Assembly: GCF_000219215.1 (NCBI RefSeq)
Contig: NC_015724.1
Span: 310,001-374,000, forward strand
Direction of reading: 5' to 3'
Source of the DNA: Cupriavidus necator N-1
GTDB lineage: Bacteria > Pseudomonadota > Gammaproteobacteria > Burkholderiales > Burkholderiaceae
Length of the DNA: 64,000 nt
Shown: positions 1,824-20,340 of the stretch, piece after piece
How positions within the stretch are numbered: the stretch's first letter is position 1
Layout: the number at the start of each line of letters is the position of its first letter
Notes under the pieces: generated by a model
The model's database searches: none
Told to the model about the DNA's origin: nothing
The model's input: only the letters and a program-made list of their open reading frames with translations
Made by a program: the position numbers and the translations under genes

Positions 1824-2260
1824 CGCAGGAAAACCCGTTGCCACGCCCCTTCCGGGGGCGTGGCGAACGGGGAGCAGTGCGCACAACGCGCATAGCTCTA
1901 TGTGAGGACGCAAAGTCGTCCTCGTGCAGCAGGGTTCACGCTGCACTTCGGCCCATTTAGAACACGGAGTTCACCGCAGGATCACGGATCAGCCGACGAC
2001 GGCCGTTCTGCCCAGGAGGGGCAAGAGAGAGAGACCCACATGGTCCCAGGCTCGAACGGTGTCCACTGTGCATGCCGAAGCAGCACAGATCACGGACGCG
2101 TATTACGGATGATAGATGGGGAGCAAACGGCGAAATTGCTCATCGCAATGGAATGTCCACACCGGTAGCCAACCGGTCGGCGCATGCGCTAAGGCACGAC
2201 TTGAGAAATGCAATGGACTCGCGGTGGAGTCAGGTCGATGCGTCGGAGACGCGAGAAGTG
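1790..2260 (-). ncRNA. candidate non-coding transcript with leader motif
   Basis: A copy of the element's structured leader (2216-2260) with a -10-like CATAAT (plus 2266-2271) starts a possible minus transcript that ends at the terminator near 1788. No convincing protein lies between. The only ORFs are tiny, for example a 17-codon ORF starting near 2142. It could be a regulatory RNA, a leader-peptide unit, or the relic of a lost gene. A possible 42-codon plus-strand ORF (2040-2168) opposite is equally unsupported. Confidence 0.25.
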
Positions 2261-2271
2261 AGATCATTATG
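2216..2271 (-). promoter_or_regulatory. PRTRC-region leader motif, copy 1
   Basis: Stem A is GCGTC 2240-2244 / GACGC 2248-2252, flanked by the constant GGTCGAT and GAGAAGTG as read on the plus strand. Stem B is GACTC 2216-2220 / GAGTC 2227-2231. A further hairpin (ACCGGT twice) lies near 2160-2176. On the minus strand a CATAAT box (2266-2271) sits about 7 nt before CACTTC, so transcription would begin at the motif. This copy has no clear protein gene downstream. Confidence 0.6.
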
Positions 2272-2385
2272 CACGGAATGCTCCAATGCGCAAAGTGCGT
2301 AACCTCGCGAAAATCGCATACTTTACGATGCGCATTTGCACCGGGTCCTGACAGAGAATCTCCGCAGAGAGAGAGACTTACGATC

Positions 2386-2988
2386 ATGGACATAGCCGAG
2401 CAGCCAGGGATATTTCCTGCCCACCTACCGCAATTCCCACCCGACGCCGTGCAGGCGGCGCAAACCGAGAGCGCCGCCCCAGACACTGGCCTCAAACCGA
2501 TCACGCGGCTAATCAGCGAAGATCGCATCTCGCGCATCGTTCCCGAGACGGCCACCAAGGTGCAGGTCTCGTTCTCTTCGGTGTTCACGCGCCGCTTCCT
2601 GCACGATGACTACAATTTCTGCGCCGCCAAATGCTCGGTGGCCCGCGGCGGGAAGGTGAAGGCGCTCGACGAAGCCTTTCGCGAGGCCGAGGAGTGGTTC
2701 ACGCGCGTGACCGAGTGGCTCGCCACGAAGAACCAGGTGGAGTTTTCCATCGGTTATGAAACCGTTGCCCTGGAAGTGCCCAACGCACTCGCAGGGCGAC
2801 TGGTGCGCCTGCTCAACCAGTACGACAAGCTGTCGTCGGCAACGCTATTCGCGCACATCGGGCGCTCAATCTCCGGGGCCGAGCGCGATACCCAGCTCGA
2901 TATCGCAAGCCGCCGTATCAACATCATCCACACGCTTTGCATTCCGGACAACGACCGGTTTGCCGACGACGGTAGCCGGCTCTCTTAG
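2386..2988 (+). CDS. hypothetical element protein, AcaB/DUF1845-like
   Basis: 200 aa. The first 45 residues are Pro/Ala-rich. The rest is a compact domain with EVPNALAGRLVRLLNQYDKL and RINIIHTLCIPDN motifs, which resemble the ICE protein family annotated as TIGR03761 / AcaB-like. This similarity is from memory of the motif pattern and is weak. The start at 2386 follows a purine tract (GAGAGAGAGAC). It begins a plus-strand operon with the membrane protein (3032) and the bactofilin (3647), divergent from the leader motif at 2216-2260. An imperfect palindrome (about 2309-2337) in the upstream region could be an operator. Confidence 0.5.
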   Translation: MDIAEQPGIFPAHLPQFPPDAVQAAQTESAAPDTGLKPITRLISEDRISRIVPETATKVQVSFSSVFTRRFLHDDYNFCAAKCSVARGGKVKALDEAFREAEEWFTRVTEWLATKNQVEFSIGYETVALEVPNALAGRLVRLLNQYDKLSSATLFAHIGRSISGAERDTQLDIASRRINIIHTLCIPDNDRFADDGSRLS

Positions 2989-3031
2989 CCGCCCCTTCCG
3001 CATTCCAGACTTTCCGACTCCAAGGATTACC

Positions 3032-3637
3032 GTGGACATTCGAGATATCCAGCGCCTGCACGAGCAGTTCGCGCATGCCCCGCTCACCCTGGAGGCTCCG
3101 ACAAGCTCCAACCATACTACCCCCGGCCTGTTGCCGCCTCCCGCCTACGCCTACGCTGCCGCAGGCGCGACGCGACGTTGGGCAGAACGCGCCGGCGGCG
3201 CCCGCTTGATCGTCACCGTCATTGTTGGGATCGTAGCGGCCGGCGCACTCGGCATGTCGATCGCCACCTGGCTGCATGGGCGGGAAACCACCGCGGCAAC
3301 GCCTGAGTCTGCCGCTCCCGCGCCTATGCAGACGATGGCGCCGGAGAAAGAATCCGCCCCAGCGCCGGCCGTCGCCGCCGTTGCGGATGCTGCGTCGGTA
3401 CCGGCGAGCGCGCAGCCTGTGGAACCGCGGGCAAGGGTTGCCGAGCCCGCGCAACCGTCCGTCCAGCCGTCGCCGCCGGTCGCCGCGCCAGTGCCTCGAC
3501 CAAGTCCGGCTTCCGGCGCGAGGGAAGCAGCTCCGGTCGCGCGCAAGGCCGAACCTGCCCCGGCGGTTGCGAAGGCCCCGCCGGCCTCTCCTGCTGCCCG
3601 TCGCGCCGACGGCGCGGCCGAGATCAAGCTGTTCTGA
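3032..3637 (+). CDS. single-pass membrane protein with Ala/Pro-rich tail
   Basis: 201 aa with GTG start preceded by AAGGA. A cytoplasmic N-terminus of about 55 residues is followed by one hydrophobic segment (about residues 58-80, LIVTVIVGIVAAGALGMSI) and a long low-complexity Ala/Pro/Glu/Arg tail ending in EIKLF. It lies 9 bp before the bactofilin gene, so it may be a membrane anchor or partner for the bactofilin polymer. That role is inferred from position only. Confidence 0.65.
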   Translation: MDIRDIQRLHEQFAHAPLTLEAPTSSNHTTPGLLPPPAYAYAAAGATRRWAERAGGARLIVTVIVGIVAAGALGMSIATWLHGRETTAATPESAAPAPMQTMAPEKESAPAPAVAAVADAASVPASAQPVEPRARVAEPAQPSVQPSPPVAAPVPRPSPASGAREAAPVARKAEPAPAVAKAPPASPAARRADGAAEIKLF

Positions 3638-3646
3638 GGATTTTCC

Positions 3647-4084
3647 ATGAAAGACACCCCTCTTTTCAGCGTGCTCAATCGTGGCATGAGCATCCACGGT
3701 GATGTGGCTGCGGATCATGGCATCACCTGCCTTGGCCTCGTCGACGGCAACCTTTCCTCCTCCGCCGGACTGCTCCACATTGCCGCCGGCGGCATCGTGC
3801 GCGGCAAGGTCGAAGGCGACCACGTGATCGTGGACGGCATCGTTGAGGGCGACGTGGCGGCACGCAGTACGCTAATCCTCAACGGCCGCGTGAAGGGTGA
3901 GATCTTCTACGCCGGGACCATCCGGCTGGGGATGAACGCAAACCTCGAGAGCAAGATTTCGCGGGTCGCAGCCATCGCGGCTGGCACCGGCGCACACGTC
4001 TTTGCGCGAGAAGCTGTGGTGGCGGGATCAGTCGATCCCGCTGAGATGGCCGATGCGAACACGGCGGCTACCCCGAGCACATGA
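3647..4084 (+). CDS. bactofilin (polymer-forming cytoskeletal protein)
   Basis: 145 aa, the usual length for bactofilins. A short N-terminal extension leads into a right-handed beta-helix with repeated hydrophobic turns (GDVAAD, GLVDGNLSSS, GGIVRGKVEGD, DGIVEGDVA, LILNGRVKGEI) and a disordered C-terminus. Members self-assemble without nucleotides into filaments at the membrane. It is the last gene of a plus-strand operon with a membrane protein and is followed by a clear terminator. Bactofilins are usually chromosomal, so its place on a mobile element is notable. Confidence 0.88.
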   Translation: MKDTPLFSVLNRGMSIHGDVAADHGITCLGLVDGNLSSSAGLLHIAAGGIVRGKVEGDHVIVDGIVEGDVAARSTLILNGRVKGEIFYAGTIRLGMNANLESKISRVAAIAAGTGAHVFAREAVVAGSVDPAEMADANTAATPST

Positions 4085-4139
4085 GTCCACCCTATTTGCG
4101 GAAACGCACATCATTAAGCATCTCTTTTGAGTTGCAACA

Positions 4140-4165
4140 GCCCGGCTTGCCGGGCTTTGTTGTTT
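4140..4165 (+). terminator. rho-independent terminator of the bactofilin operon
   Basis: GCCCGGC, TT loop, GCCGGGC (4140-4155), then TTTGTTGTTT on the plus strand, 56 bp after the bactofilin stop. Confidence 0.85.
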
Positions 4166-4237
4166 CTGGTGCGGCTATCGAGTAGTCAGCAGTCGCCGCG
4201 TCGACGGTTGCGTGGGTATGCGGCGCTCACATGCAAC

Positions 4238-4266
4238 AGAAAAACCCCGGAGCAAGCTCCGGGGTT
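4238..4266 (-). terminator. rho-independent terminator of the MoxR-VWA operon
   Basis: AACCCCGGAGC / GCTCCGGGGTT inverted repeat (4243-4266). On the minus strand it is followed by TTTTTC, directly after the stop at 4271. Confidence 0.85.
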
Positions 4267-4270
4267 GGGT

Positions 4271-5512
4271 TCAAACGATTACCTCGACCGCCTCGCCAAA
4301 CGGCGGCGGAGCAATCCGACGCAGCGGCGTGGTCGAAGCCCACAGCGTGGGGTACGCTGGCGGCGCGGACGGAAATTTCCCGTCCATGTCCGTCAGATAG
4401 ACCAGGAAGGCCGGGTGAACACCCTGCTCTTCCAGCCAGGCGAACGGCGCTACAAAACTTGTGCCGCCACCGCCACGGATGGGGCCAAGCTCGATAGCCT
4501 CGCCCCTTTCAAAGCACTGTACCTGTGCGATGCGTGTGTCACAGTCCACCACGAACAAACGCCGCGGCTGCAGCGACGTGAAGACCGCTTCGATCTCCGC
4601 GCCGAACTGGGCCTGCGTCTCGTCGAATACCGATCCGCTGGTGTCGCGCACAAAGACCGCATCGCCCACCGACTGGTCATGCAAAGCCGGGAGGTACAGG
4701 CCCATGTGGGTGTACCGCCGGTTCGGCATGGCCCAGCTATAGTCCGAACGAGTCTGCTCGAAGGCAAAGCGGTGCAGCACGGAGCGCCAGTCCACCGAAG
4801 CCCGCGTGGCTGACGCCACCATTGCGCTCAGGTCGCCGGGAAGCTTTCCACGCATCTGCACGGCTTTCGCCGCCTGCATCGCCGCCACCTTCCACTCGTT
4901 GGCCAGCGCCTGCTGTGCTGCCTGCGGTTGCTGGCGCACCTCCCCGGGTGAAAACTCCGGCGAAGCCTGGGAAGGATCGCCCCCGGCGCTGCTATCGTCC
5001 GGCCCGTCCTGCCCATCAGGCTGTGGCGGGCCGCTGCCATCACCCTGACCGCTGCCATCCTGCTGTGGTTGGGGTTGGGGTGCTGGTTGCGGCGGCTGCT
5101 GCGGTTGCGGTTGCTCCGATCCTTCCTGGCGCAACATGGCATAGATCTCTTCCGCGGACTTGCCGAGAAAGCGTCCGTCGATCAGCGCGCCGGCCGGCAG
5201 CTGCAAGCCGGCGTTCAGCACCAATGGATTAATCGCATAGTCGCACGCATGATTCCAACGGCCGGGATCACGCACACCACGGCGCCAGCAATGGCCATTG
5301 GCCGGATGCAGGACCTCATGCGCCAGACAGCCGCGCAGTTCAAGATCGCTCAGGGTGGCGACATACGCCGGGTTGTAGCCCAGCGACACGCCATTCACCC
5401 AGAACGTCTTGCACGACGGATCCTCGACCAGCTGCAACCGCATCAGCAACGCCCCGAAGAACGGTTGCGACAGGATAAGCTGGGAACGCTGCTTCGAGAT
5501 TCGATCGCGCAT
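4271..5512 (-). CDS. VWA-like / putative metallopeptidase domain protein (DUF2201 type)
   Basis: 413 aa. The N-terminal half has a zinc-metallopeptidase-like HEVLH motif (H65-E66-V67-L68-H69) in the setting typical of the putative metallopeptidase domain PF13203. A Gln/Pro-rich linker (about 130-195) follows. The C-terminal half is VWA-like with an intact DTSGS MIDAS motif. Family members pair with MoxR-type AAA+ ATPases and are thought to act as metal-dependent adaptors or chaperones. It is the last gene of a three-gene operon, starting 7 bp after the DUF3150 gene, and is followed by a strong terminator. Confidence 0.82.
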   Translation of the reverse strand: MRDRISKQRSQLILSQPFFGALLMRLQLVEDPSCKTFWVNGVSLGYNPAYVATLSDLELRGCLAHEVLHPANGHCWRRGVRDPGRWNHACDYAINPLVLNAGLQLPAGALIDGRFLGKSAEEIYAMLRQEGSEQPQPQQPPQPAPQPQPQQDGSGQGDGSGPPQPDGQDGPDDSSAGGDPSQASPEFSPGEVRQQPQAAQQALANEWKVAAMQAAKAVQMRGKLPGDLSAMVASATRASVDWRSVLHRFAFEQTRSDYSWAMPNRRYTHMGLYLPALHDQSVGDAVFVRDTSGSVFDETQAQFGAEIEAVFTSLQPRRLFVVDCDTRIAQVQCFERGEAIELGPIRGGGGTSFVAPFAWLEEQGVHPAFLVYLTDMDGKFPSAPPAYPTLWASTTPLRRIAPPPFGEAVEVIV

Positions 5513-5519
5513 GACGGCC

Positions 5520-6437
5520 TCACGCAGTCAGCATTTGGAACATCGGCGAGGCGGGCGCAGTGGCATCCGACGACGGCGGAGGGCCGCCCATAAAGGCGGC
5601 CATCTGTGCCTCGATCTCCATAGCCTTCTCGGCCACCTGCTTGCGCAGTTCGGTCGAGTTGCGCAGGTCCAGGCCGCTGTGCCGCGCCAGATGCTGCTGG
5701 GTGTCCTCCAGGATGCGCGTGAGCGCCGGGTCCCCGGAGAAGTTCAGCTTGGGCAGCAGCGCGCTCAACTCGCGCACCTTGTCGGCAACGTCCAGCCGCA
5801 CGTTCGTCGCCCCATACAGGCGGTTGGCGAAGTGCTGCACAGCCTCGAAGAGCCGGCCTACCAGGTCGTCATTGGCGGTTTTCACCGCACCGAGCACTCG
5901 CTGGTCCATATCCGTCTTCAGCCCGTCCAGCACGTTGGCGGGTAGAGCGATGTCAAACTGGCTAGCGTCGGGGAACGGCAGCACTGCGAGCCGCATGCCG
6001 AATTTCTTCGCCAGTTCCGCCTGAGTCGGATAATCCGCCTCGTCGAACAGGCCGTTCAGGGCCTCGCGCGCCTCATCCTTCAGGCGCGGATAGTCGCCAA
6101 GAAACACCGCGGTAGCGGCGTTGAACTCGTCCTGGAACTGACGCTGACGATCGGCCACCTCCATGTACATGTCGGTGGGCAATAGGCGCACGCCCAGTTG
6201 GTCGTAGTCCAGGCTGTGCGCATCGAAATAGGCGCGTGCGCGATTGGCGATCGCACACACCTCCTTGTACGACGTCGCACCCTCGGTCAGCAGCTTCTTG
6301 TTGAAGCGGCCAATGTCCTTGGTGTCGTGGTTCGCCTCGACTTCCTCGGTCGCCCGGGTGTCGAATTTGCGCGCCCGCCATACCGACGTGTTGAAGGTGG
6401 CGAGCATGACGCGCTTGATAATGTCTTGAATGTTCAT
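5520..6437 (-). CDS. DUF3150 family protein
   Basis: 305 aa, mainly helical, matching the DUF3150 family in its N-terminal LATFNTSVWRARKFD stretch and length. Function is unknown. The gene lies between a MoxR-like AAA+ ATPase and a VWA/metallopeptidase gene, an order that suggests a MoxR-type complex with this protein as a third subunit. Its start is preceded by CAGGA and by a leader hairpin (ACGGCGAGCC / GGCTAGCCGT, about 6485-6510), similar in position to the hairpins before other genes here. Confidence 0.72.
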   Translation of the reverse strand: MNIQDIIKRVMLATFNTSVWRARKFDTRATEEVEANHDTKDIGRFNKKLLTEGATSYKEVCAIANRARAYFDAHSLDYDQLGVRLLPTDMYMEVADRQRQFQDEFNAATAVFLGDYPRLKDEAREALNGLFDEADYPTQAELAKKFGMRLAVLPFPDASQFDIALPANVLDGLKTDMDQRVLGAVKTANDDLVGRLFEAVQHFANRLYGATNVRLDVADKVRELSALLPKLNFSGDPALTRILEDTQQHLARHSGLDLRNSTELRKQVAEKAMEIEAQMAAFMGGPPPSSDATAPASPMFQMLTA

Positions 6438-6526
6438 GATGAATCCTGAAAATGGGACGGATACGGCTGCAAAGACAAACGGCTAGCCGGATGGCTCGCC
6501 GTCATGGGATGAAGAAGAAAGGTGGA

Positions 6527-7552
6527 TCAGTTGCCGAGCAGCAACTCACCGAGCTTGCAGCCCTGCGCATTGATCCACGCCGGGGTGGCACAGATTCGCG
6601 AGTCGCGGCGTGCTGCGTCGGTGGCGAGCATCACCGCGAACTCCCCGAGATGGGCTTCGAACAGGCGATTGGCGTACACCATCACGCGATCGAAGTTGTT
6701 TTCGTTGGCAACGGAGGCGAGCGCCGAGCAGATGGCGTACTGCGCCGCCACCTTGTCCGGAATCCTCGCGGATTCCGGGGCGGCCAGCACCGAATCGACA
6801 CTGGGCAGCTCGCGATAGATCTGGCGGAACGACTCAAACTCGAGCGCCGCGCCCTCGCCCACCGCGCCGGCCGAGACGATGATCTCCATGCCGGGCGGTA
6901 CCAGCGGCAGTTGACGCGCCAGGTGCCCCCAGCCTCGCGGCGAGGGCAGGTTCTCCACTTCCTTGCTGCGCTCGGACGAGAGCAGCAGGTCAGGACGGAA
7001 GCGCAGAAAGGCAATCAGCACGGGCGGCACATGGTTCGTGACCGCCCACCGTGTCCAGTCCTCGATCGTCGGCTCCAACTCAACGATGGTGCTGAAGCGG
7101 GATTTCAACGGATCAAGGATGTTGGACACCGCCGCGTTGTCGCTGCGACGGTTGGTGGCGGCAACAAAGGTGACGTGGTCCGGCAGGACGTGTTCACCAA
7201 TGCGCCGCGCGAGCAGTAATTGCATCTTGGCCGCCTGGACGGCCGGCGAGGCTTGTCCAAGGTCATCGATAAACCAGACCAGCGGGCGCAGGCTGTTGAG
7301 CGCGGTGGCCAGATCCCCGAACGGCAGGAACTTGGCACCCGCGCCATCCGTTGCCGGAAAGGGCAAGCCCTTGGAGTCGGTCGGATCTTCCACCACCGGG
7401 TGGGAGATCAGCAGGTCGTAGCCTGCAGCCTTGGCAGCGCTGGCCACGATATCGCTCTTGCCGATGCCAGGCGCCCCGGTGATGAGGACGGGCAGGCGTG
7501 CGGGAATGAAGGCCGCGAGCAGGGTGTGCAGTTGGGAAGGGTTCACTTTCAT
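6527..7552 (-). CDS. MoxR-like AAA+ ATPase
   Basis: 341 aa from the ATG at 7552 (TAGGA site); an upstream in-frame start at 7585 lacks one. Walker A is GAPGIGKS (residues 26-33), Walker B is LVWFIDDLGQA, and sensor-type residues follow in FVAATNRR. MoxR ATPases act with VWA proteins to remodel or activate client proteins. First gene of the trio with DUF3150 and the VWA/metallopeptidase protein. The leader carries copy 2 of the multi-hairpin motif, and its last hairpin overlaps the ribosome site. Confidence 0.85.
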   Translation of the reverse strand: MKVNPSQLHTLLAAFIPARLPVLITGAPGIGKSDIVASAAKAAGYDLLISHPVVEDPTDSKGLPFPATDGAGAKFLPFGDLATALNSLRPLVWFIDDLGQASPAVQAAKMQLLLARRIGEHVLPDHVTFVAATNRRSDNAAVSNILDPLKSRFSTIVELEPTIEDWTRWAVTNHVPPVLIAFLRFRPDLLLSSERSKEVENLPSPRGWGHLARQLPLVPPGMEIIVSAGAVGEGAALEFESFRQIYRELPSVDSVLAAPESARIPDKVAAQYAICSALASVANENNFDRVMVYANRLFEAHLGEFAVMLATDAARRDSRICATPAWINAQGCKLGELLLGN

Positions 7553-7675
7553 GGGATGTCCTAAAGGGAAGTCCCACAAAGCCACCCGCCCGACAGGGAT
7601 GGTGTCCCTGTGGGAAGGTTCAATGAATAGGCCAGCTCGAAGCTGGCAGAGGTCGATGCGTCAGGAGACGCGGGT
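7553..7675 (-). promoter_or_regulatory. PRTRC-region leader motif, copy 2 (MoxR leader)
   Basis: Stem A is GCGTC 7658-7662 / GACGC 7667-7671 with a 4-nt loop. Stem B is GCCAGC 7631-7636 / GCTGGC 7642-7647. A third hairpin (ACAGGGA / TCCCTGT) lies around 7580-7605. A last imperfect hairpin (GGGAxxTCC / GGAAxTCCC, 7553-7575) includes the AGGA ribosome site of the MoxR gene. Confidence 0.7.
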
Positions 7676-7794
7676 AAAACGCGGTTTGGACTGATCCGAA
7701 CCAGTACGAACAGCGCTCAGTAGACAGGCTAGCTCAGAGTCAGCGGATTAGGCCGACGAAACATGATGAAATTAGCGTCCCTTTTGGGGCGAGA

Positions 7795-7825
7795 GAGAAA
7801 ATCTCCCCGGCACAGGGCCGGGGAG
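7795..7825 (-). terminator. terminator-like hairpin after the 521-aa gene
   Basis: CTCCCCGGC 7803-7811 / GCCGGGGAG 7817-7825. On the minus strand it is followed by ATTTTCTCTC, 18 bp past the stop at 7843. Confidence 0.7.
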
Positions 7826-7842
7826 TAACGCGAGGAAGCCAA

Positions 7843-9408
7843 TCAGGCGGCCACTGCCATCGAAGCGGACGCCACGGCCAGTCGCGACCGGGCATAGTCC
7901 AGCGTGCCATCCTTGGCCTGTAGACGTCTGATGGTCCGCGTCGCCGGCTGCTCGATGTAGTAGACCCGAGCGCTGCCGCGCGGGAAATGCCGGATCTGGC
8001 TGAAACCTTGGTTAATGCACAGGTCGACATACTCGCGCCCGTTCATTTTCCTGCCATCGACACTCCAGCGCGACGCTTCGGCCCGCTCGCGCGCCCGCTC
8101 CGCATCATCCGCCTGCAGGCGCTCGGTGCGTGCAGTCTGCGCCTGAGCTTCCCAATGCTGCTGTTCAGCCTCGGAAAACCCGCACAGCTCGAAAATGCGG
8201 CGGCGCCGTGTGACAGCGGGTACGCCGGTCAGGACAACGCCGAATTGCTCACGCAGCGCACGCTTGGACGATGTGTTGCGATCGTTCGGCGTGTCCAGCG
8301 TTTGCAATAGCGTTGCGATGTCGCGTTGCATGACCGCCAAGGCAAACCGGTTCGGCCATGAGAAGCTGGCGTGGTCACGTTCGATGGCGGCAAGCGCCGT
8401 CTCGCGTTGCAAGCAGCGCTCACTCATCGCGCCCCTGGCGCGCTCAGCCTGTGCGCGCGCAAGCCGTTCGGCGTACCGCTTGGCACCGATCAGCGAGTGA
8501 AGGCGGGCAGCCAACGGCGAGACAGGCGCGGCATCATCACCGCTCGGCGGCTTGCCGACGGGCGCCGCCAAAGGCGGGATCACCTGCGCAGCATAGAGCG
8601 CATCGTCGACCGTCACGTAGGTGCAGTCGTCTGGCAAGGGCTTCACCAGTGCGATGAGCCGCGCGGCGTTGCGATCGGTAATGGCGAGCTCGTCTTGGCG
8701 CATCACGTCGCACAGCGACTGCAGCTTGCCTGGCGACAAGGCCCCGCGCAGCGCTGGCACCGCGATTAGCGTCCGCAGCCAATGCAGGTCGTGCCGACCA
8801 GCATCTGCCGCATCACCGTCGTGGCGGTAGGCATTGAGGATGCAGTCGCGCACCGGCTCGCCCCGCTGAAGCGCGTAGGCAACGTGCACTTCGTAACGCG
8901 AATTGACGCCAGCGCCAGGCGAGTACTCAGGGCCGTTGGTCCCGTAGCCAAATCGGCGATCGAATTCCACTCGGATGAACTCGTAGGCATCGAACGGCTC
9001 GACCACCGCGAACAAATCGAGGTTGGCCGCTCCGAGGTCCGCGACCTGGTCGGGATCGACCGCTTCGTTGGTGAAGACCGCAAGGCGGCCGGCCGCATAG
9101 ACGGCAAGCCACGACGTACGGCTCATCTCGTGCGGACGCAGCACCTTGCCCTGCGGACGGACGATGAAGCGCTCAACCTCGTCCAGGATGGACGTGAGGA
9201 TCGCCTTCGGGTCGCCGGCGGGCCGCACCGCGAATTGCCCGGAGTGCAGCCGCAAAACGGGAATGGCGCCGCGCTCGACATGGCGAACCGAGATGCCTTC
9301 TGCGCGCAAGCCGGGCTTGGGCCCAGGTTCGAGATTCAGATAAGCCAGCACGCCGGCTAGGGTCGTGCGGGTGTCGACCCGTTCCGGGCCAGTCGAGATA
9401 ACGTACAT
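7843..9408 (-). CDS. large hypothetical element protein
   Basis: 521 aa, soluble, no family that I recognise. An N-terminal region (about 1-290) has alternating hydrophobic strands. A C-terminal region (about 310-470) is helical and charged (repeated Arg/Glu/Gln), ending in a small strand-rich tail. The start is preceded by GGAG at 5-nt spacing. That GGAG lies in a perfect 7-bp hairpin (TGCTCCG 9412-9418 / CGGAGCA 9427-9433), with a GGGGCA-TGCCCC hairpin further upstream, so translation may be controlled by leader structure. It sits between a DUF4313-like gene and the MoxR operon. Confidence 0.65.
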   Translation of the reverse strand: MYVISTGPERVDTRTTLAGVLAYLNLEPGPKPGLRAEGISVRHVERGAIPVLRLHSGQFAVRPAGDPKAILTSILDEVERFIVRPQGKVLRPHEMSRTSWLAVYAAGRLAVFTNEAVDPDQVADLGAANLDLFAVVEPFDAYEFIRVEFDRRFGYGTNGPEYSPGAGVNSRYEVHVAYALQRGEPVRDCILNAYRHDGDAADAGRHDLHWLRTLIAVPALRGALSPGKLQSLCDVMRQDELAITDRNAARLIALVKPLPDDCTYVTVDDALYAAQVIPPLAAPVGKPPSGDDAAPVSPLAARLHSLIGAKRYAERLARAQAERARGAMSERCLQRETALAAIERDHASFSWPNRFALAVMQRDIATLLQTLDTPNDRNTSSKRALREQFGVVLTGVPAVTRRRRIFELCGFSEAEQQHWEAQAQTARTERLQADDAERARERAEASRWSVDGRKMNGREYVDLCINQGFSQIRHFPRGSARVYYIEQPATRTIRRLQAKDGTLDYARSRLAVASASMAVAA

Positions 9409-10581: not shown

Positions 10582-10962
10582 CTAGCTTCGGCGGCTAGCC
10601 ACCACACGCAGCGTAGCAACGAGCGAAGCATAGCCTTCGGGCGAGCCGATCGAATGCAAGCACACCGCGTTGTCGCGACCGCCCGTATGGTCGTCGCGGC
10701 CGCGGCAGGTGCGAAAGCTCATGTGAGCAGCGTTTTGCTGTGGCGCATGGGCGATTTGCACGTACAGGCTGTCGGTGTGCAGCGCATAGAGATCGGCCTG
10801 GTGGCGGCGGTGCCGGCGCTCGCGCACAGTGAAGTCTCGCTGGCGCAGGCCAAGGTCGCAGGCCAGACGGCGGAAGACGCGCGAAGCATCGCGTTTGAGG
10901 TTGGCGCAGGACGCGGCATTGCCGGGCTGATGCGGCTGTGTAAAGGACTTGGGGATTTTCAT
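10582..10962 (-). CDS. hypothetical protein
   Basis: 126 aa from the ATG at 10962. Basic (Arg/His-rich) with a strand-like LYALHTDSLYVQIAHAP segment. No family recognised. Longer in-frame starts would run through the leader motif (copy 3) and are rejected for that reason. First gene of a short operon ending at the terminator near 9902. Confidence 0.55.
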   Translation of the reverse strand: MKIPKSFTQPHQPGNAASCANLKRDASRVFRRLACDLGLRQRDFTVRERRHRRHQADLYALHTDSLYVQIAHAPQQNAAHMSFRTCRGRDDHTGGRDNAVCLHSIGSPEGYASLVATLRVVASRRS

Positions 10963-11070
10963 GGCAGATCTCGAAAATGATCGGGACGGCCATCCCCATC
11001 GGGACGGTGTCCCGAGAAGGGTGAAGGTCTGGACAAGCCAGACGGGGGTTCGATGCGTCTTGGACGCGAT
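10963..11070 (-). promoter_or_regulatory. PRTRC-region leader motif, copy 3
   Basis: Stem A is GCGTC 11055-11059 / GACGC 11063-11067. Stem B is GTCTGG 11027-11032 / CCAGAC 11038-11043. A third hairpin (TCGGGAC / GTCCCGA) lies at about 11000-11015. It precedes the 126-aa gene that starts at 10962. Confidence 0.7.
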
Positions 11071-11537: not shown

Positions 11538-11645
11538 AGTCGGCTCCATGGCACGGGACGCCGATCACGAGGGCGGTGCCCCGTGGGTGCAAGGGATGGT
11601 CCTGGCGGTGCCAGGCGCGGATTTCGATGCGTCGTGGACGCGATC
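11538..11645 (-). promoter_or_regulatory. PRTRC-region leader motif, copy 4
   Basis: Stem A is GCGTC 11629-11633 / GACGC 11637-11641. Stem B is CCTGGC 11601-11606 / GCCAGG 11610-11615. A third hairpin with GGGGCA follows at about 11565-11585, and a TCGGC / GCCGA hairpin covers the ribosome site of the 11537 gene. Confidence 0.7.
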
Positions 11646-11730: not shown

Positions 11731-12225
11731 TCAACGCGTCAGGCGATAGCCGCCGCCCGACGACACCAGGTACAGTTGTTCGCCGACGACGAACTGCTGA
11801 TCGGCGCCTTGTGCCACGACGAGCTGGCGGCCGCTGTCCGTGCGGACAATGACCTCCACGCCGTCGCGCTGCGACAGGTGCGTAGCCGCGACCTGCCCGA
11901 TGACACCCGCTGCCGTGCCCGAGAGCGCGCCGGCGATGTAACGCCCATCGCCGTTGCCGATGACACGCGCACCGAGTACTGCGCCAACCAACGTGCTGAG
12001 GATTGCCGGCACACCGGAGTTAGCCGACAACATGCTGTCGCCCGCAATGGTGACGTTGCGCACGCGCACTACCGTCACCTGCTCCGCGGAACCGGCGCGC
12101 ATGGCATCGGAACCGCGGTAGACATTGGGCGAACTGAGCAGCGCGGCCACTGATAGCACTGACAAATGCAAAGAGGAGGAAATAACGCTTGAACATGCTG
12201 GCCTCACATGAAAATGGGCCAACAT
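11731..12225 (-). CDS. SlyB-like glycine-rich envelope protein, probable 5' frameshift
   Basis: The mature part (AEQVTVVRVRNVTI..., Gly/Ala-rich GALSGTAAGVIGQVAA) looks like a SlyB/PcP-type outer-membrane protein with a glycine-zipper segment. The open frame runs from 12225, but its first 30 residues do not form a signal peptide. An ATG at 12196 in another frame, with GAGG upstream, encodes a convincing signal-like MFKRYFLLFAFVSA. A single frame slip near 12145-12160 would join it to VAALLSSPNVYRG. So the gene is either frameshifted or the assembly has an indel. Leader motif copy 5 precedes it. Confidence 0.55.
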   Translation of the reverse strand: MLAHFHVRPACSSVISSSLHLSVLSVAALLSSPNVYRGSDAMRAGSAEQVTVVRVRNVTIAGDSMLSANSGVPAILSTLVGAVLGARVIGNGDGRYIAGALSGTAAGVIGQVAATHLSQRDGVEVIVRTDSGRQLVVAQGADQQFVVGEQLYLVSSGGGYRLTR

Positions 12226-12309
12226 GCCTACGGGCAGGAAGGCCCGTAGGGGAAAAGCTGTGCCAGCGGAGATGCCGGCGTGGTCGATGCGTCAGGGACG
12301 CGAGAAGTG
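12226..12309 (-). promoter_or_regulatory. PRTRC-region leader motif, copy 5
   Basis: Stem A is GCGTC 12289-12293 / GACGC 12297-12301 with constant flanks. Stem B (12262-12279) reads GCCGGC / GCTGGC on the minus strand and is fully paired only if one G-U pair is allowed, which fits a minus-strand RNA. A hairpin CCTACGGGC / GCCCGTAGG follows (about 12228-12250). A TAAGAT box (about 12312-12320) lies upstream as a possible -10. Confidence 0.7.
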
Positions 12310-12349
12310 CAGCTATCTTAGCAGTCCGGGCATCGTTTGTGGAGCCGTC

Positions 12350-12847: not shown

Positions 12848-13579
12848 TCACGGAAGTTTTCCGAAGAGACAAGGGATTGTGAGGAAGCGAACCTTCACGC
12901 TGCAGCCCGTTGGCTGTCTGTCTGGTGTCGGAACGTCCGCAGGGTTCACGCGAGCGACGGGGACCGGCGACTCCGCCCAGAAGAGCAAAGCCGGGCCGTC
13001 AGCCTCGCGTGGTCGCACAGTGCCAACGAAGTCTTCGCGCCCGCAGAGGCTGACGCGCGTATTGTCGGTACCGTTGTGATGGAGATAGACGCCGCCGCGG
13101 TCAGCGGCGAGTTTGCCCTCCAGCGCCAGGAAGACGCGGTGGAAGTCATAGAGGTGGCGCGGGTCGCACTGCCCCGGCTCACCGCTACCCCGATGGGGAC
13201 CGATGGCGCGACGGTAGACGGGATAGCACGGATCGCGCCGCACAAATTCGAATGGTGTGCCGCCGTGCACCAGTTCGGCCCAGCCGGGCCGCTCGGTATC
13301 GAGGCGCAGGTCCAGCAAGCCAAACTTGCCGCGCACCGGCTTTACGCATTCGATGACGTTGTGGGGCAGGATGCAGCTTACGCAGATGGCGTCGCCAAGC
13401 TGGTTGGCCTTCTCTGCGCGGAACACGCCCATGCGTTGTCCGTCCATGGCAACCAGACGGGTTTCGCGTGCCATGGCCTCAACAAAGACTCCATTGAGCC
13501 AATGGCGGGGATCCTGCTTGGGCGCAAGCAAGGCGATGGCCTTGAGCTGGCGCGGGTCAATCTGGATGATTTGGTTCAC
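12848..13579 (-). CDS. short DNA sliding-clamp-like protein (DnaN-related)
   Basis: 243 aa with GTG start. The segment RHWLNGVFVEAMARETRLVAMDGQRMGVF resembles the domain-2 signature of the beta clamp (YLNG...LVATDGHRLA). At 243 aa it is about two thirds the length of a chromosomal DnaN (about 366 aa) and would have two domains. It may be an element-encoded processivity factor or a clamp-binding decoy. The GGAG ribosome site is buried in a perfect 9-bp stem (CTGTGCTCC 13582-13590 / GGAGCACAG 13602-13610), so expression is probably controlled by the leader. Leader copy 6 precedes it. Confidence 0.6.
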   Translation of the reverse strand: MNQIIQIDPRQLKAIALLAPKQDPRHWLNGVFVEAMARETRLVAMDGQRMGVFRAEKANQLGDAICVSCILPHNVIECVKPVRGKFGLLDLRLDTERPGWAELVHGGTPFEFVRRDPCYPVYRRAIGPHRGSGEPGQCDPRHLYDFHRVFLALEGKLAADRGGVYLHHNGTDNTRVSLCGREDFVGTVRPREADGPALLFWAESPVPVARVNPADVPTPDRQPTGCSVKVRFLTIPCLFGKLP

Positions 13580-13700
13580 GTCTGTGCTCCGGGGAAAGAC
13601 AGGAGCACAGCCACGGGGACAATGCCCCAGTGGGTTGCGAATACCTGACGGACGTCAGGCTCGGAAAGGTCGATGCGTCGGTGACGCGAGAAGTGATAGG
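13580..13700 (-). promoter_or_regulatory. PRTRC-region leader motif, copy 6
   Basis: Stem A is GCGTC 13675-13679 / GACGC 13683-13687. Stem B is CCTGACG 13644-13650 / CGTCAGG 13653-13659. A third hairpin GGGGACA-TGCCCC lies at about 13614-13627. A fourth 9-bp perfect stem (13582-13590 / 13602-13610) contains the GGAG ribosome site. An AGTAT-type -10 lies a few bases before CACTTC on the minus strand. Best example of the complete leader. Confidence 0.75.
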
Positions 13701-13727
13701 GATACTAGCACAGCATCCCGCCTACCA

Positions 13728-14296: not shown

Positions 14297-14324
14297 GAAA
14301 AAACCCCCAACTTTCGTCGGGGGT
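14297..14324 (-). terminator. rho-independent terminator of the PRTRC operon
   Basis: On the minus strand an ACCCCCGAC / GTTGGGGGT hairpin (GAAA loop, one G-T pair) is followed by TTTTTTCTTC, 26 bp after the ThiF stop. Confidence 0.85.
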
Positions 14325-14349
14325 GGTTGCATGATCGCGCATCGCGCTG

Positions 14350-15785: not shown

Positions 15786-15793
15786 GTTCAGTC

Positions 15794-16510
15794 TCAGAAT
15801 TGCCCGGCGATCAGGTTGCCGAGGGATTGGTTCATGGGGATGAGCGCCGCTTTTGGGAAGGTTGGAAACCTCCCGTCCAGCATGTCGCGCCAGAAGGCGT
15901 AGAAGCCGTCGTCATAGTCGACCCGCTTGCCGCCGTGATTGGGATGGGTGAAGGCAGAGGCGAAGAACGCCCCTTCCCAGCCGGCTATGGACGCCGCGTC
16001 GATCTGCTTTGGCACGTGGGCCGTGCCGATGCAGATCTTCCCGTGGTCCCAGGTATTGAAGTAAGGCGGCTCGTACAGCATCGATTCCGGCGTCGGGCGC
16101 TCATCCTCCATCAGGGCGAACACACGAAAGCCGGCAGGCGACGCGTGAAAGACCAGTCCGGGATGGGGCGTCATGGCACTGCGATCGCCCAGCTCCTCGC
16201 AGTTGAAGTACACGCGGCGATTGCCGGGCGGACACCACCAGGTGATGGCATCCGGGCCGATCGACAGCACGTTGGGCGTCAAGAACTCGCCCTTGGGCAG
16301 CGAGGCCTCGGCGACCTGACGCACCGCCTGGATCAGCGCACGCCGGTTCAGTGGCGTGCCGGCTCCGATCACGGGTCGCCCCGTCTGAGCATCGGTGACG
16401 ATGCGATGCGCCGTGGCATAAGAGAACGCACTGAGGTCAGTCCCATACAGCAGAATGGCCCCTTGCAGGGCCACATCATGGTCGCGTGAAGCACTATGAA
16501 TCTTGGCCAT
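15794..16510 (-). CDS. PRTRC system protein B, E2-like
   Basis: 238 aa. The C-terminal half has a fold-like order of HPGLVFHAS, FRVFALM, EPPYFNTW, then DHGKICIGT with C160. This resembles the E2 active-site context (HPN...GxICL). I infer that B is the E2-like transfer enzyme of the cassette; C160 is the candidate thioester cysteine. A strong AGGAGGG site precedes the ATG. The gene starts 9 bp after protein F. Confidence 0.85.
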   Translation of the reverse strand: MAKIHSASRDHDVALQGAILLYGTDLSAFSYATAHRIVTDAQTGRPVIGAGTPLNRRALIQAVRQVAEASLPKGEFLTPNVLSIGPDAITWWCPPGNRRVYFNCEELGDRSAMTPHPGLVFHASPAGFRVFALMEDERPTPESMLYEPPYFNTWDHGKICIGTAHVPKQIDAASIAGWEGAFFASAFTHPNHGGKRVDYDDGFYAFWRDMLDGRFPTFPKAALIPMNQSLGNLIAGQF

Positions 16511-16519
16511 GTGGCCCTC

Positions 16520-17653
16520 CTATTCAGAAATTAAGGTGAGAACGCGGTCGAGTGCCGCGATGACGTCCATCATGTCGGCCAGTTGCTTGAACTGGCGCCG
16601 GATTGCGCGAGGGGTATTTGCCAGCGGAATTAGCGACTGATACATCGTGGCGTCGCCCCCGCAATTCAGGGAGTCGAAGTGGTCATCGAGGATCTGGCCC
16701 ACCCAGTGCCCCCTCCACATGCAGAGCGTCGCAGCCGAGTAGGCAGGTTCTGCCCATTGCGCGTGGTTGAGTGCACGGCTGCGCCGGGTCCGGGCGAGTA
16801 CCGCCTGTAGGTCCAGCAGCGCAAGGCAAATTCGGCGTGGCAGGCCACGTTTTTGACCCGCCAGCGCCTCCAGTTGCGGAGCGCGCAAGCAGTCGATGCG
16901 CACGGATTTGTCCCGTCGCGCAAATGCAGGCACCGCGTCATCTGGGGCGAGCACTGGCAGTACCTTGGACGGCAGGTAGCGCTCGATCTCGGAGCTGTCA
17001 GCGTCGCCGAACCGCTCGCCGAGAAACTCCCGCGCCTCCTCATCGCTCATTGTCGGATCGCACTCCCACCACCAGCGGGCGAACATGTCCGCCAGCTCGT
17101 CTGGCGTGCGCACGAAGAGCGATCGACCCGCAGCCTCGTTGACGAGGTGTGTGGCCGTGTACAGCAGGGCGGGATCAGCGCGGCGCATGATATCGGCACG
17201 CTTCCCGATCTCGAACACGGCTTCCTCGTCAAGCTCGATCGCCAGGTACAACGGCGCATGGAGGTCTTCGTCCCATCCGAACTGATCGACCTGCTCCCTT
17301 GCGGCAGCCAGGTCGAGCAACGCGAACGAGAAGTTCAACCGTTTGCACTTGGGCATGCGCCGGCGCAGCCAGGCGAACATGGCCTGCGCGAACGCATCAC
17401 CGGCGCTGGCCGCCCCCTGCACGTCCCGGGCCGCCAGCACGCCGGTTTCGAACTGCTTGCGGATCAGCCTGAGCGTGTCCGCGCCCTCGCCGTACTGCAG
17501 CTTCCCGCGGGCGGGAATCTCGGCCGAGAGCGAGGGTAGCGTCAGAAAACCATGGGCAGGTCGACGTCTGGCAGCGGGAGGCTGTCGCGATGGCGTCCAG
17601 CCGGGCCCTGATGCAATGAAGATTTCATCAGATGGGCGAGCATCGAACAGCAC
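16520..17653 (-). CDS. PRTRC system protein F
   Basis: 377 aa with GTG start and GAGGAG upstream. No enzymatic motif is visible. Recognised by its position between C and B and by its length. A PRTRC-conserved N-terminus (MLFDARP, FLTLPSLSAEIP) is followed by a largely helical body. A strong hairpin lies just upstream (17675-17699), so F and the genes after it may be expressed less than, or independently of, ParB-E-C. Confidence 0.82.
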   Translation of the reverse strand: MLFDARPSDEIFIASGPGWTPSRQPPAARRRPAHGFLTLPSLSAEIPARGKLQYGEGADTLRLIRKQFETGVLAARDVQGAASAGDAFAQAMFAWLRRRMPKCKRLNFSFALLDLAAAREQVDQFGWDEDLHAPLYLAIELDEEAVFEIGKRADIMRRADPALLYTATHLVNEAAGRSLFVRTPDELADMFARWWWECDPTMSDEEAREFLGERFGDADSSEIERYLPSKVLPVLAPDDAVPAFARRDKSVRIDCLRAPQLEALAGQKRGLPRRICLALLDLQAVLARTRRSRALNHAQWAEPAYSAATLCMWRGHWVGQILDDHFDSLNCGGDATMYQSLIPLANTPRAIRRQFKQLADMMDVIAALDRVLTLISE

Positions 17654-17674
17654 GATTCCATCTCCTCAGAATGT

Positions 17675-17699
17675 GAAAAAACCGCCCTTTCGGGCGGTT
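17675..17699 (-). terminator. intra-cassette terminator between C and F
   Basis: ACCGCCC 17681-17687 / GGGCGGT 17692-17698. On the minus strand it is followed by TTTTTTC. It sits inside the PRTRC operon and would attenuate F, B, A and ThiF. Confidence 0.75.
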
Positions 17700-17755
17700 T
17701 CTGGTTGGAAGGCAGGCAGAAGTCCGGACTGGACAGTGCCTGCATCAAGTCACGC

Positions 17756-17974
17756 TTACGCATGGCAGCCCTTGGCGCCGGCGGCGCGCACGAACGTGTA
17801 GCGCATGACGGTCCCGTTATGCACCGGACCATCCACCGTGGCGGTGGTCAGCTCGGGGTACTGGGCGGTGTACATGTCGCGCACCTGGTCGGTCGAAAAT
17901 GCCGGGCCAGGATCCATCAGGGTCATGCCGTTGTAGATGAATTCACGGGTCAGTTGCTGGACAGTCAGGCTCAT
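17756..17974 (-). CDS. PRTRC system protein C, ubiquitin-like beta-grasp candidate
   Basis: 72 aa. The pattern REFIYNGMTLMDPGPAFS, QVRDMYTAQYPEL, then VMRYTFVRAAGAKG is the hallmark of PRTRC protein C. Small size, two N-terminal strands, one helix and C-terminal strands fit a ubiquitin-like beta-grasp. A plausible modifier for ThiF. The C-terminus (AKGCHA) is not a canonical diglycine, so it may need processing. AAGGAG ribosome site. Confidence 0.88.
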   Translation of the reverse strand: MSLTVQQLTREFIYNGMTLMDPGPAFSTDQVRDMYTAQYPELTTATVDGPVHNGTVMRYTFVRAAGAKGCHA

Positions 17975-17985
17975 GGTGTCGCTCC

Positions 17986-18444
17986 TTATCCGAGCAGATC
18001 GGCGAGGTTGGTACCGCTCGGCTCGGGCGAGGATGCCTGGGGCGCGGGGGCCGCAGCCTTGCCCTCGCCTTCCGCGTTGTCGTCCGTGCCGTCAGTCCCA
18101 TCCGCATCATCGGAAGACGATGCGACCGGCTTGCTGTTGGCCTTGGATAGCGCCTTCTGTGCCTTGGTAGACTGCGCGCTGGTTGCCGCGTTCAGGATCG
18201 AAGCAGTGGCTTCGACCTGTTCGGCCAACGAGCGATGCGAGACCGACACCGAGGAGATTGCCTGGGCAAAGCCCTCGTCCAGTTCCGCCGGGGAGGCGGT
18301 CAGAGCGAGCGGGGTGGCCAGCGCCGCGTCAGCGGCCTTGGAAACGACCGGTGCAACGACAACAGCCATCGCGTCACCCTTCATGGTTAGCGTGAGCACA
18401 ACCTTGTCGCACGCGGTGACGAGCGGAACGAGTTCCTGAAACAT
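17986..18444 (-). CDS. PRTRC system protein E
   Basis: 152 aa. The N-terminal FQELVPLVTACDKVVLTLTMKGD and VVAPVVSK... motifs match PRTRC protein E. The C-terminal 50 residues are acidic and low-complexity. AAGGA site. A 7-bp leader hairpin (CGACCGC 18482-18488 / GCGGTCG 18495-18501) lies between ParB and E. Confidence 0.85.
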   Translation of the reverse strand: MFQELVPLVTACDKVVLTLTMKGDAMAVVVAPVVSKAADAALATPLALTASPAELDEGFAQAISSVSVSHRSLAEQVEATASILNAATSAQSTKAQKALSKANSKPVASSSDDADGTDGTDDNAEGEGKAAAPAPQASSPEPSGTNLADLLG

Positions 18445-18508
18445 GGGGAGATCCTTGAAAAGATGAGTAAATGGGGGAAAGCGACCGCCGGGAAGCGGTC
18501 GATTGCGA

Positions 18509-20173
18509 TCAGAAGCGAAGAACCTTGGGCAGCTTGCCCGCGTATTCGAATCCGTCGACGTTGAGCAACGCCTCGATCAGATCCGGCTTGGACTTGTTAA
18601 AGACCTTGGCGAAGTTGTCACCAAGTGCGGCACGCAGGCCCAGCTCGTCGGCCAGCACCTTAATTTCCGACTTGGTCAGCAGCCCCAGGAAGTCTTTGGA
18701 CTTCTGCAGGTTCCAATGCTGGCGCAGATCCAGCTTGTGGTATTGGCAGAGCGCCACAAGGTGATTGACTTCGATCCCCTCGATGGCCGCGACGGTCATT
18801 GCTGTGGTCAGCGTGACACGCTTGCCGGCATCCAGCTCCTGCACGGTGGACAGGTTCTTCTTGAGGTCGGTGGACGTAGCCTTCTCGTCCGTCAGCTTCT
18901 CGAAGATCTTGCCCATGATGTCGCCACCAATGTTGCGCGAGAGGCCGGACAGCGCCACCGCCAGCAGGTAGATGTTGGCGGTCTCGGGAACGCTTGCGGC
19001 CTCGCGGCGCAGTGCCTTGCGCCACAGCGCGACCCGGTAGGCTTTCACCTTCTCGGTCTCGCTGATGTGCGTGACAGCCTTTTCCTCTGCAGGCGTTTTG
19101 GTCGAGCCTTTGGCAGTCGTGGATGAACCCGCGGCTGCAGCGGCCGGCTTTTGTGCGTTCGCCTTGGCGTCGCGCTCAGCCTTCAGGCGTGCCGCGATCT
19201 TCTTGCTGTTGCAAGCCGTATCGAAGCACTGACCACGGAAGACCTTGCCGATGCTATCCGGCAACGCGCTGACCGCCGCGCCATAGTGCTCGCAGGCATG
19301 GCAGGCCTTCGCCTGATCTTCGCCAACGCCGGTCGGACCGTCCACCACCAGTTGCACGCGCGTATGGTTGTCCCCCGCACGCACAATCCGGATCACCGGG
19401 TACTCATCCTTCAGGCCGTAGGCTACCGTTTCCAGTTGCTTGTCGGTCTTCTGCGTGTAGCAGGCGCGGTTGGTGCAATTGCCGGTCGCAATCGCCTCGC
19501 CGAACATTTCCGTCTGCAACGACGAGTTGTGTGGGCAAGCAGCGCAGTCGGCCTTATCGAAGATTGCCGTAGCGAGGCTGCACGCGGCGGCCTCGATGGT
19601 CTTCTTCAGTTCGGCCACCGACTTCTTCTCGCCCACGATGACGGGCAGGAGCTTGTCCTGCTTGTCCTTGGCGAGCGTCGCTAGCAGTTCGGCGTGGCCA
19701 AGCTGGATGGTGCGGGTGTTGAGCGCGTCCAGAACGGACGTGCTGCAGTTCATCAGCCCCAGGCGCTTGTCCAGCGTGGAGCGGGACCAGCCCAGGATCT
19801 TGGCGGCTTCCTCGCGGTCGCCCTTAAGTTGTCCAACGATCCGTGCGGCAGCCACGGCTTCCTCGGAAGGGGCCATGTCCGCACGCTGGACGTTCTCGAT
19901 GAGGGCGAGCCGGTCGGCCTCCTCTTCGGTCATCTCGCGGATGGTGACAGGGATGGGATAGTCGTCGCCGTGCGCCGCCCTCGCGGCACGCAAGCGGCGT
20001 TCACCGGCCACCAGCTCGTAGCCGTCATCGCCCAACGGACGAATCAGGATTGGCTGGATAACACCGTTCTCGCGAACGGAATCGGTGAGCTCCGCCATTT
20101 CGGCAGCATCGAAGTACTTGCGCGGGTTGCGGCCAGGACGGATCTTGCCGAGGGCGATAGTGGGGCTTTGCAT
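18509..20173 (-). CDS. PRTRC system ParB-family protein
   Basis: 554 aa from the ATG at 20173. ParB/Srx nuclease-like N-domain with NPRKYF, then GVIQPILIRP and ELVAGERRLRAAR (the GERR box), then the ENVQRADM helix and an HTH (AAKILGWSRSTLDKRL). After it comes a cysteine-rich middle (CAACPH, CTNRACY, CHACEHYG, CFDTACNS) that probably binds zinc and sets PRTRC ParBs apart. No ParA is next to it. First gene of the cassette with leader motif copy 7. Confidence 0.92.
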   Translation of the reverse strand: MQSPTIALGKIRPGRNPRKYFDAAEMAELTDSVRENGVIQPILIRPLGDDGYELVAGERRLRAARAAHGDDYPIPVTIREMTEEEADRLALIENVQRADMAPSEEAVAAARIVGQLKGDREEAAKILGWSRSTLDKRLGLMNCSTSVLDALNTRTIQLGHAELLATLAKDKQDKLLPVIVGEKKSVAELKKTIEAAACSLATAIFDKADCAACPHNSSLQTEMFGEAIATGNCTNRACYTQKTDKQLETVAYGLKDEYPVIRIVRAGDNHTRVQLVVDGPTGVGEDQAKACHACEHYGAAVSALPDSIGKVFRGQCFDTACNSKKIAARLKAERDAKANAQKPAAAAAGSSTTAKGSTKTPAEEKAVTHISETEKVKAYRVALWRKALRREAASVPETANIYLLAVALSGLSRNIGGDIMGKIFEKLTDEKATSTDLKKNLSTVQELDAGKRVTLTTAMTVAAIEGIEVNHLVALCQYHKLDLRQHWNLQKSKDFLGLLTKSEIKVLADELGLRAALGDNFAKVFNKSKPDLIEALLNVDGFEYAGKLPKVLRF

Positions 20174-20340
20174 GATTGGGCTCTCCGGATGGGGAATGGG
20201 AACCCGTTGCCGCACCGGGAACAGGTTCCCGATGGGATAAGAAAGTGAAATTGGCAGCCCGGCGATGCGGGAGGCCAAATTACTGCGAAAAGCTGTGCAC
20301 CAGGCGGTGCGTGGTCGATGCGTCAGGGACGCGGAAGTAG
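20174..20340 (-). promoter_or_regulatory. PRTRC-region leader motif, copy 7 (parB leader)
   Basis: Stem A is GCGTC 20320-20324 / GACGC 20328-20332. Stem B is GCACC 20297-20301 / GGTGC 20306-20310. A third hairpin CGGGAAC / GTTCCCG is at 20216-20222 / 20225-20231. A GGG...GGAG...GCCC hairpin overlaps the ribosome site. The flank reads GGAAGTAG instead of GAGAAGTG. Confidence 0.7.

Follow-up and report, generated by a model that had tools for sequence, protein, structure and literature searches.

Translational riboswitches and attenuators, such as sequestor/anti-sequestor platforms and erm-type leaders, work through alternative pairings at the ribosome-binding region that exclude one another. 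In the HK022 put RNA a pair of short hairpins lies close to the 5' end of the transcript, the KorB operators of RK2 are palindromic sites spread over many plasmid promoters with involvement of a ParB-family protein, and the Frpo single-stranded promoters of conjugative plasmids are a repeated element ahead of many plasmid genes. Here, we describe a repeated leader on a 424-kb contig (NC_015724.1) of Cupriavidus necator N-1, studied in a stretch of 64 kb (310001-374000 of the contig; the whole stretch is referred to as the window, and copies 1 to 7 are given in its coordinates). A sequence-only reading of the window had described seven copies of a leader in which a constant hairpin (hairpin A) is followed by a second hairpin (hairpin B) of differing sequence. 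All seven were recovered where it had placed them, readable as minus-strand RNA in the order A then B. The leaders of the genes downstream share two further hairpins: C, often of the form CCC-N-CGGGA-ACCAC-UCCCG-N-GGG, and D, which lies over the ribosome-binding region.

On a type of large plasmid found in Cupriavidus, Burkholderia and their relatives, the mRNAs of several core genes appear, judged by sequence, to share one small hairpin at their start; the hairpins behind it are particular to each gene and look capable of masking or freeing the translation start. Our preferred reading, which we consider probable, if only just, is that the copies are mRNA 5' ends in which A and B form a shared 5'-end address and C and D a translation switch. 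The first module would consist of A (five base pairs, GCGUC-N3-GACGC, then AUCGA, near the predicted 5' end) and the gene-specific B, and would mark plasmid mRNAs by protection of the 5' end and/or by binding of one plasmid-wide trans factor. Downstream, the 5' arm of D (D5) would pair either with the ribosome-binding and start region, which forms the D hairpin (off), or with the 5' arm of C (C5; on), C being closed on itself in the off state. The resting state is predicted by calculation to be off, and a putative trigger would open C. The alternatives weighed below are not mutually exclusive, and the likelihoods given for them need not sum to one.

The leader resembles sequestor/anti-sequestor systems in that D5 has complementarity to the upstream arm C5 as well as to the ribosome-binding region. 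Unlike in riboswitches and attenuators, the only common aptamer-like part is the small hairpin A, and many copies are present per plasmid. It departs from put RNA in having its constant sequence in A only, with B free in sequence, and from KorB operators in that the motif is strand-directed, lies downstream of the predicted start, has a centre whose length is not fully fixed and is followed by RNA structure. The difference from Frpo is that the -10 box lies outside the hairpins and there is no folded promoter. Among the open-access papers listed by searches on PRTRC, the sbcD RNA motif, Burkholderia plasmid leaders and anti-sequestors, none was seen to describe the element; the main text of an RNA survey of 50 genomes (PMC11109978) lacks the words Cupriavidus, Burkholderia, Ralstonia, plasmid and sbcD.

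The leader recurs with the PRTRC element

The pattern CGCGTC-N2-5-GACGCATCGA was searched in the C. necator N-1 genome (8.48 Mb) and in 398 genomes of the same family (Burkholderiaceae). In the N-1 genome 11 exact matches were found, ten of them on the 424-kb contig between 308500 and 385881, whereas the reversed-pattern control gave none. As ten matches fall within about 77 kb and the control is empty, the clustering is not due to chance. The single match on another contig sits inside an open reading frame and was not counted as a leader. Three of the copies on the 424-kb contig lie outside the window, and no eighth copy was found within it on either strand when up to one mismatch was allowed in each half of the motif.

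The motif was present in 147 of the 398 family genomes, with up to 16 matches per genome (three hits in total for the reversed pattern), and 71 genomes carried at least three matches, that is three to sixteen. The PRTRC protein ThiF scored above its cut-off in 64 of these 71 (Fisher p 6e-54); 11 genomes had ThiF with fewer than three matches, and 316 had neither ThiF nor three or more matches. Among the seven genomes with at least three matches and no ThiF, two had only N4/N5 matches that resemble coding coincidences and five had normal-looking copies. Single N4/N5 matches in other genomes looked by eye like coding coincidences and were excluded from the statistics. The N3 form was found in 6 of 399 genomes searched at the order level, and outside the family in 3 of 386, with a single hit each. 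Copies were present in all seven Burkholderiaceae plasmids searched by name (pHG1, pMOL28, pBcn842-1, P. dioscoreae pIII, pPHS1_P, C. zhejiangensis p3 and Robbsia p3), and none was found in a 41-kb stretch of plasmid 2 of Polaromonas JS666, which carries PRTRC and comes from another family. The window neighbourhood itself is a PRTRC element: NCBIfam models identified ParB (TIGR03734, 760 bits), ThiF (TIGR03736, 342 bits) and protein E (TIGR03741, 101 bits), and Pfam models Prok-JAB, Prok-E2_D and alpha-hel2 proteins.

The copies collected (151) were reduced at 80% identity over 100 nt to 126 non-redundant ones, of which 10 come from the element of N-1, 31 from the seven named plasmids and 85 from 100 genome stretches picked from clusters; at least one of them, inside the parB coding frame (L049 16174), is probably false. 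The proposal of a multi-copy structured leader common to the plasmid core is thus well supported by computation, through this recurrence across genera and the co-occurrence with PRTRC as well as through the distance to the -10 box and the folding of B given below.

Position relative to promoters and terminators

A -10-like box (TANNNT) was found 20 to 16 nt before the motif in 75 of the 126 copies, in 63 of them exactly at -18; at -40 to -36 it occurred in only 1.6%. Base frequencies over the same copies showed a weak preference for TTG near -41. From these positions we infer transcription from a start about 6-7 nt ahead of A, and A would therefore be a 5'-terminal hairpin. Maps of 5' ends made by tagRNA-seq and Cappable-seq exist for C. 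metallidurans CH34 (PMC7563307, PMC9045368), the host of pMOL28. For the minus strand of pMOL28 (NC_007972.2), with the copies classed by eye, primary 5' ends are predicted near 90669, 84558, 83384 and 75119, and read-through or ends with a 5' monophosphate near 82676, 78883 and 71415.

A second class of copies (28 of 126 by a strict test) stands directly behind a hairpin and a short T-run. Both features were found in one copy and neither in 24, many of which are near misses by eye. Of the window copies, 2, 3 and 4 fall into the terminator-like class, and copy 1 fits neither class. That only one of the 28 copies also has a -10 box fits another explanation, in which A and B serve antitermination, RNA polymerase reading through the upstream hairpin and U-run, or processing, an RNase cutting the U-run and A capping the new 5' end. 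The three window copies of this class lie inside a same-strand gene series, and two cis hairpins near a promoter are reminiscent of the HK022 put RNA. However, the T-runs are short, mostly 3-4, and A stands after the terminator, not before it; we regard this explanation as rather unlikely.

Several copies beside the PRTRC D gene or an integrase gene are followed by a terminator-like hairpin and a T-run (L011 5150-5402, minus strand; similar at L046 3579, L048 3761 and L050 6717). From its sequence, such a terminator-ended copy may be the start of an independent RNA roughly 140 nt long. As a well-folded RNA it was rejected, its fold being no better than that of shuffled sequences (z -0.50, 55 of 200 as good).

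Hairpin A is nearly constant

The stem GCGUC/GACGC and the flank AUCGA are nearly fixed among the 126 copies, which is partly so by construction, because the copies were found by a pattern with at most one mismatch per half. A loop of 3 nt is present in 113 copies, whereas 12 copies have 4 nt and a single one has 5 nt; the 4-nt centres belong to six moxR leaders, the probable false copy in parB and five copies elsewhere. When all 218 paired stems before ATCGA in the fetched DNA were considered, 147 were GCGTC/GACGC. Four variant stems stand in a fitting context: GCGCC/GGCGC occurs three times, and GCGCC/GGCGU, in which one pair is G-U, occurs once; the remaining stems look like chance. In a mixed alignment of 90 copies, chosen by eye from 125 mostly by dropping those without a clear B, one row exchanges a U-A for a C-G pair in A. 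RNAalifold on this alignment was discarded as a test of covariation, as it recovers A only, because the gene-specific B stems do not align; alignments of orthologues were used instead.

Such a palindrome could also be a DNA operator, bound just past the transcription start by a repressor such as a KorB-like plasmid ParB or another dimer, B to D then being separate RNA features. The half-sites are constant around a free centre, which has three base pairs in most copies, A keeps a near-fixed distance from the -10 box, and parB is among the genes led. On the other hand, an operator does not account well for the 13 copies with a 4- or 5-nt centre, for the AUCGA flank on one side only, for the 28 copies behind a terminator-like hairpin with a -10 box in just one of them, or for variant stems that are still paired, in one case via G-U. 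These variants, taken as sequences, fit an RNA hairpin and are too few to decide against a DNA operator, which we consider quite unlikely. The idea of the sequence-only reading that one shared signal serves the whole core is plausible for A, which may be recognised in RNA or in DNA form.

In the UUUGAU subclass (11050-11068 and 11624-11642, minus strand), six additional pairs beyond a bulged C lengthen hairpin A.

Hairpin B differs between genes and folds better than shuffled sequence

The 34 nt after A folded with a mean energy of -9.2 kcal/mol compared to -5.4 kcal/mol for shuffled sequences (126 copies; mean z -2.03, 60% at p ≤ 0.05). Control folds of upstream sequence (n=126) gave a z of -0.29 with 13% at p ≤ 0.05, and those of coding sequence (n=85) a z of -0.23 with 8%. 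The 85 copies of the coding control were chosen by distance to the start and also served the folding tests of C and D and the test of upstream frames. In each window copy B has its own stem, which differs in sequence from gene to gene with pairing kept, as had been described.

This had been called compensatory change. The kept pairing stands; the seven window stems show no compensatory substitution by themselves, because they belong to different genes, and some was found among orthologues, in few sequences. Six groups of orthologues were assembled (parB with 21 of 23 loci, moxR with 17 of 18, 'mmly' with 11 of 13 and three complete groups; 78 leaders in total), one alignment taking in 10 of 11 sequences. 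For the 'kip' gene, in an alignment made from sequence, one pair of B is C-G in five and U-A in five of 10 orthologues. In the glycine-zipper gene five of six B pairs are changed on both sides (0 of 500 shuffles), and in three other sequences two of the pairs are preserved by a change to G-U on one side only. The B structures tested were derived from the same alignments, which favours them. Covariation in homologues was thus seen for B in two gene families, weakly in the glycine-zipper gene, and not for A.

Three points weigh against the RNA module of our preferred reading. Of the double changes of the glycine-zipper gene, four come from a single sequence, the stem of which may be shifted in register, and the fifth from another; the 'mmly' family lacks B, and covariation in its alignment does not exceed that in shuffles; and A varies too little for an RNA hairpin to be proven from it.

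Hairpins C and D have gene-specific partners

One of the 78 orthologue leaders lacks C, and duplex energies were calculated for the remaining 77 in six gene families. Pairing of C5 with the 3' arm of C (C3) averaged -13.8 kcal/mol for own and -9.6 kcal/mol for foreign partners, C5 with D5 -15.7 compared to -11.2 kcal/mol, and D5 with the start region -13.5 compared to -9.2 kcal/mol; in each case the true assignment was the best of 720 permutations of families. Measured against the median across families, own pairing was stronger for C5:D5 in 76 of 77 leaders and for D5:start in 72 of 77, and the own partner was the best one for six of six D5 sets in C5:D5 and for five of six in D5:start. Since own C5:D5 and D5:start pairing both beat foreign pairing, D5 has two gene-specific, mutually exclusive partners. 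Further, one moxR orthologue shows a joint change of the outer arm and D5, from UCCCACA/UGUGGGA to UCCCGCA/UGCGGGA.

In the minimum-energy folds 9-11 of the 14 nt of the start region are paired, depending on the family. Ensemble pairing was calculated for 94 of the 126 copies, chosen by distance to the start. Five window leaders fold at z -2.65 to -6.23, and that of copy 6 at z -3.78 with none of 200 shuffles as good. In the test of upstream frames, 44 of 85 leaders had no upstream ATG and 22 of 85 had a closed ATG/GTG frame of at least five codons.

Several of the calculations speak against a switch. The state with an open start costs 8.8 kcal/mol on average and least in 'kip' (4.8 kcal/mol), only 42 of 77 start-open folds use at least four C5:D5 pairs, and ensemble pairing of the Shine-Dalgarno (SD) window is not above the null (0.589 compared to 0.584 shuffled; 0.62 compared to 0.55 at the start codon; n=94). 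The likeness of C5 to the start region is weak, 23 of 720 permutations being as good, and because C3 resembles D5, the match could stem in part from an ancient tandem duplication. C and D might instead be two stable hairpins without switching, D lowering translation, C serving as a spacer or left over from duplication, and the complementarity of C5 and D5 arising as a by-product. The cost of the open state, the likeness of C3 and D5 within families and the SD pairing all suit this explanation. It sits less well with the own C5:D5 match, best among the permutations and for each D5 set, and with the coupled change in the moxR orthologue, and we give it an appreciable chance that stays below even.

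A further point against the preferred combination of an address and a switch came from 116 annotated starts on one strand of four plasmids. D-like start hairpins at p ≤ 0.05 preceded 7 of 16 genes led by A and 16 of 100 genes without A; as they also precede genes without A, the pair A and B and the pair C and D need not act together.

D-like start hairpins without hairpin A, with C-like ones by eye, lie at L044 8627, 8922 and 9521, L045 12131 and L046 21085. In the window, D-like start hairpins without hairpin A were seen, by eye only, at 9408 and 9843.

A wider version of the preferred reading would be a plasmid-wide post-transcriptional regulon, in which a single plasmid or host factor reads A, each mRNA has its own switch between C5 and the start region, and the terminator-ended copy acts as a competing RNA. 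We put it forward tentatively and think it unlikely in this full form.

Leaders of the window and the genes behind them

All leader features described here, and the sbcD RNA, lie on the minus strand. As the sequence-only reading had it, the leaders precede parB (copy 7), a clamp-like open reading frame (copy 6), small genes (copies 5, 4 and 3) and a gene for a MoxR-type ATPase (copy 2). In the leader of PRTRC parB, hairpin A (20315-20333) follows a -10-like TATCCT at 20346-20351, B lies at 20297-20310 (GCACC/GGUGC) and C at 20213-20234 (CGGGAA/UUCCCG), and the D region (20171-20212) comprises GGGUUCCC and the ribosome-binding region GGAGAGCCC at the parB start. Copy 6 (A at 13670-13688, -10-like TAGTAT at 13702-13707, B at 13644-13659 with CCUGACG/CGUCAGG) leads the clamp-like open reading frame 12848-13579, which has a weak dnaN match of 21 bits, far under the cut-off; its C lies at 13611-13633, and its D (13582-13610) is the stem GUGCUCC/GGAGCAC that holds the SD. 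In copy 5, A (12284-12302) with a -10-like TAAGAT at 12315-12320 is followed by B (12262-12279; GCCGGC/GCUGGC, one G-U), by C at 12227-12250, identified by duplex energies and the leader fold, and by a D hairpin (12194-12226) with the start codon within it. The glycine-zipper gene behind this copy (11731-12225) has a start frame (a 58-aa open reading frame at 12196) that differs from its continuation when compared with orthologues, which is either a frame difference or a sequencing error.

The remaining gene leaders are those behind a terminator-like hairpin. Copy 4 has A at 11624-11642 and B at 11601-11615 (CCUGGC/GCCAGG), for which the whole-leader fold favours other pairs. Copy 3 has A at 11050-11068, B at 11027-11043 (GUCUGG/CCAGAC), C at 10995-11019 by duplex energies and a D region (10960-10994) over the start of the open reading frame 10582-10962. 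Copy 2, whose A (7653-7672) has a 4-nt loop, leads the AAA/MoxR-type ATPase gene (Pfam AAA_5); B (7631-7647) was found by the folding test and the leader fold and C (7590-7614) by duplex energies, and the D region (7550-7589) consists of the D5 arm UGUGGGA and the start region AUCCCAUG.

Copy 1 (A at 2235-2253, CGCGUC UCC GACGCAUCGA; B at 2216-2231, GACUC/GAGUC) heads a conserved non-coding stretch (2140-2259) that runs towards an sbcD RNA and has matches in plasmid records. With 2140-2270 (about 130 nt) as query, matches were found in 43 plasmid records, 33 of them covering at least 80%; none of the 15 matches listed had an annotated feature beneath it. The sbcD RNA (Rfam RF01757) was identified at 1831-1980 with 107.7 bits (gathering score 40), its only hit. 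It shares the strand of copy 1 and lies downstream of that copy, ahead of a DUF7696 open reading frame (1429-1752) and a gene resembling a Gp3-like recombination directionality factor (146-1477). The sbcD RNA is listed for Burkholderiales, its cis-regulatory role being marked with a question mark (Weinberg 2010, PMC2864571). Like the leaders it is a structured RNA of Burkholderiales; unlike them it is described by a separate model of 155 positions, which the leaders do not match.

At the gathering score the leaders matched none of 4227 Rfam models, so that a known family, including sbcD RNA, was rejected for them. Within 1-23000 of the window and at E ≤ 5, a single match below the gathering score overlapped one of the leaders: the ar15 model hit copy 5 with 23.1 bits, compared to a gathering score of 40 (E 0.68). 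No tRNA or tmRNA genes were found in the window.

Implications for the plasmid and the family

The sequence-only reading had seen A and B; it had missed the pairing of C and D, the division into promoter and terminator classes, the possible stand-alone RNA and the fact that the copy at 2216 leads towards the sbcD RNA. If the preferred reading is true, the leaders would be an RNA family without an Rfam match, present in three to sixteen copies in 71 of 398 genomes of the family, and the orphan sbcD RNA would have its place downstream of a member of it on the same strand. A large plasmid would then control its genes for partition, the ubiquitin-like PRTRC system and DNA repair via one RNA signal combined with gene-specific switches. 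We know of no established function of the PRTRC system, for which the leaders would provide a handle.

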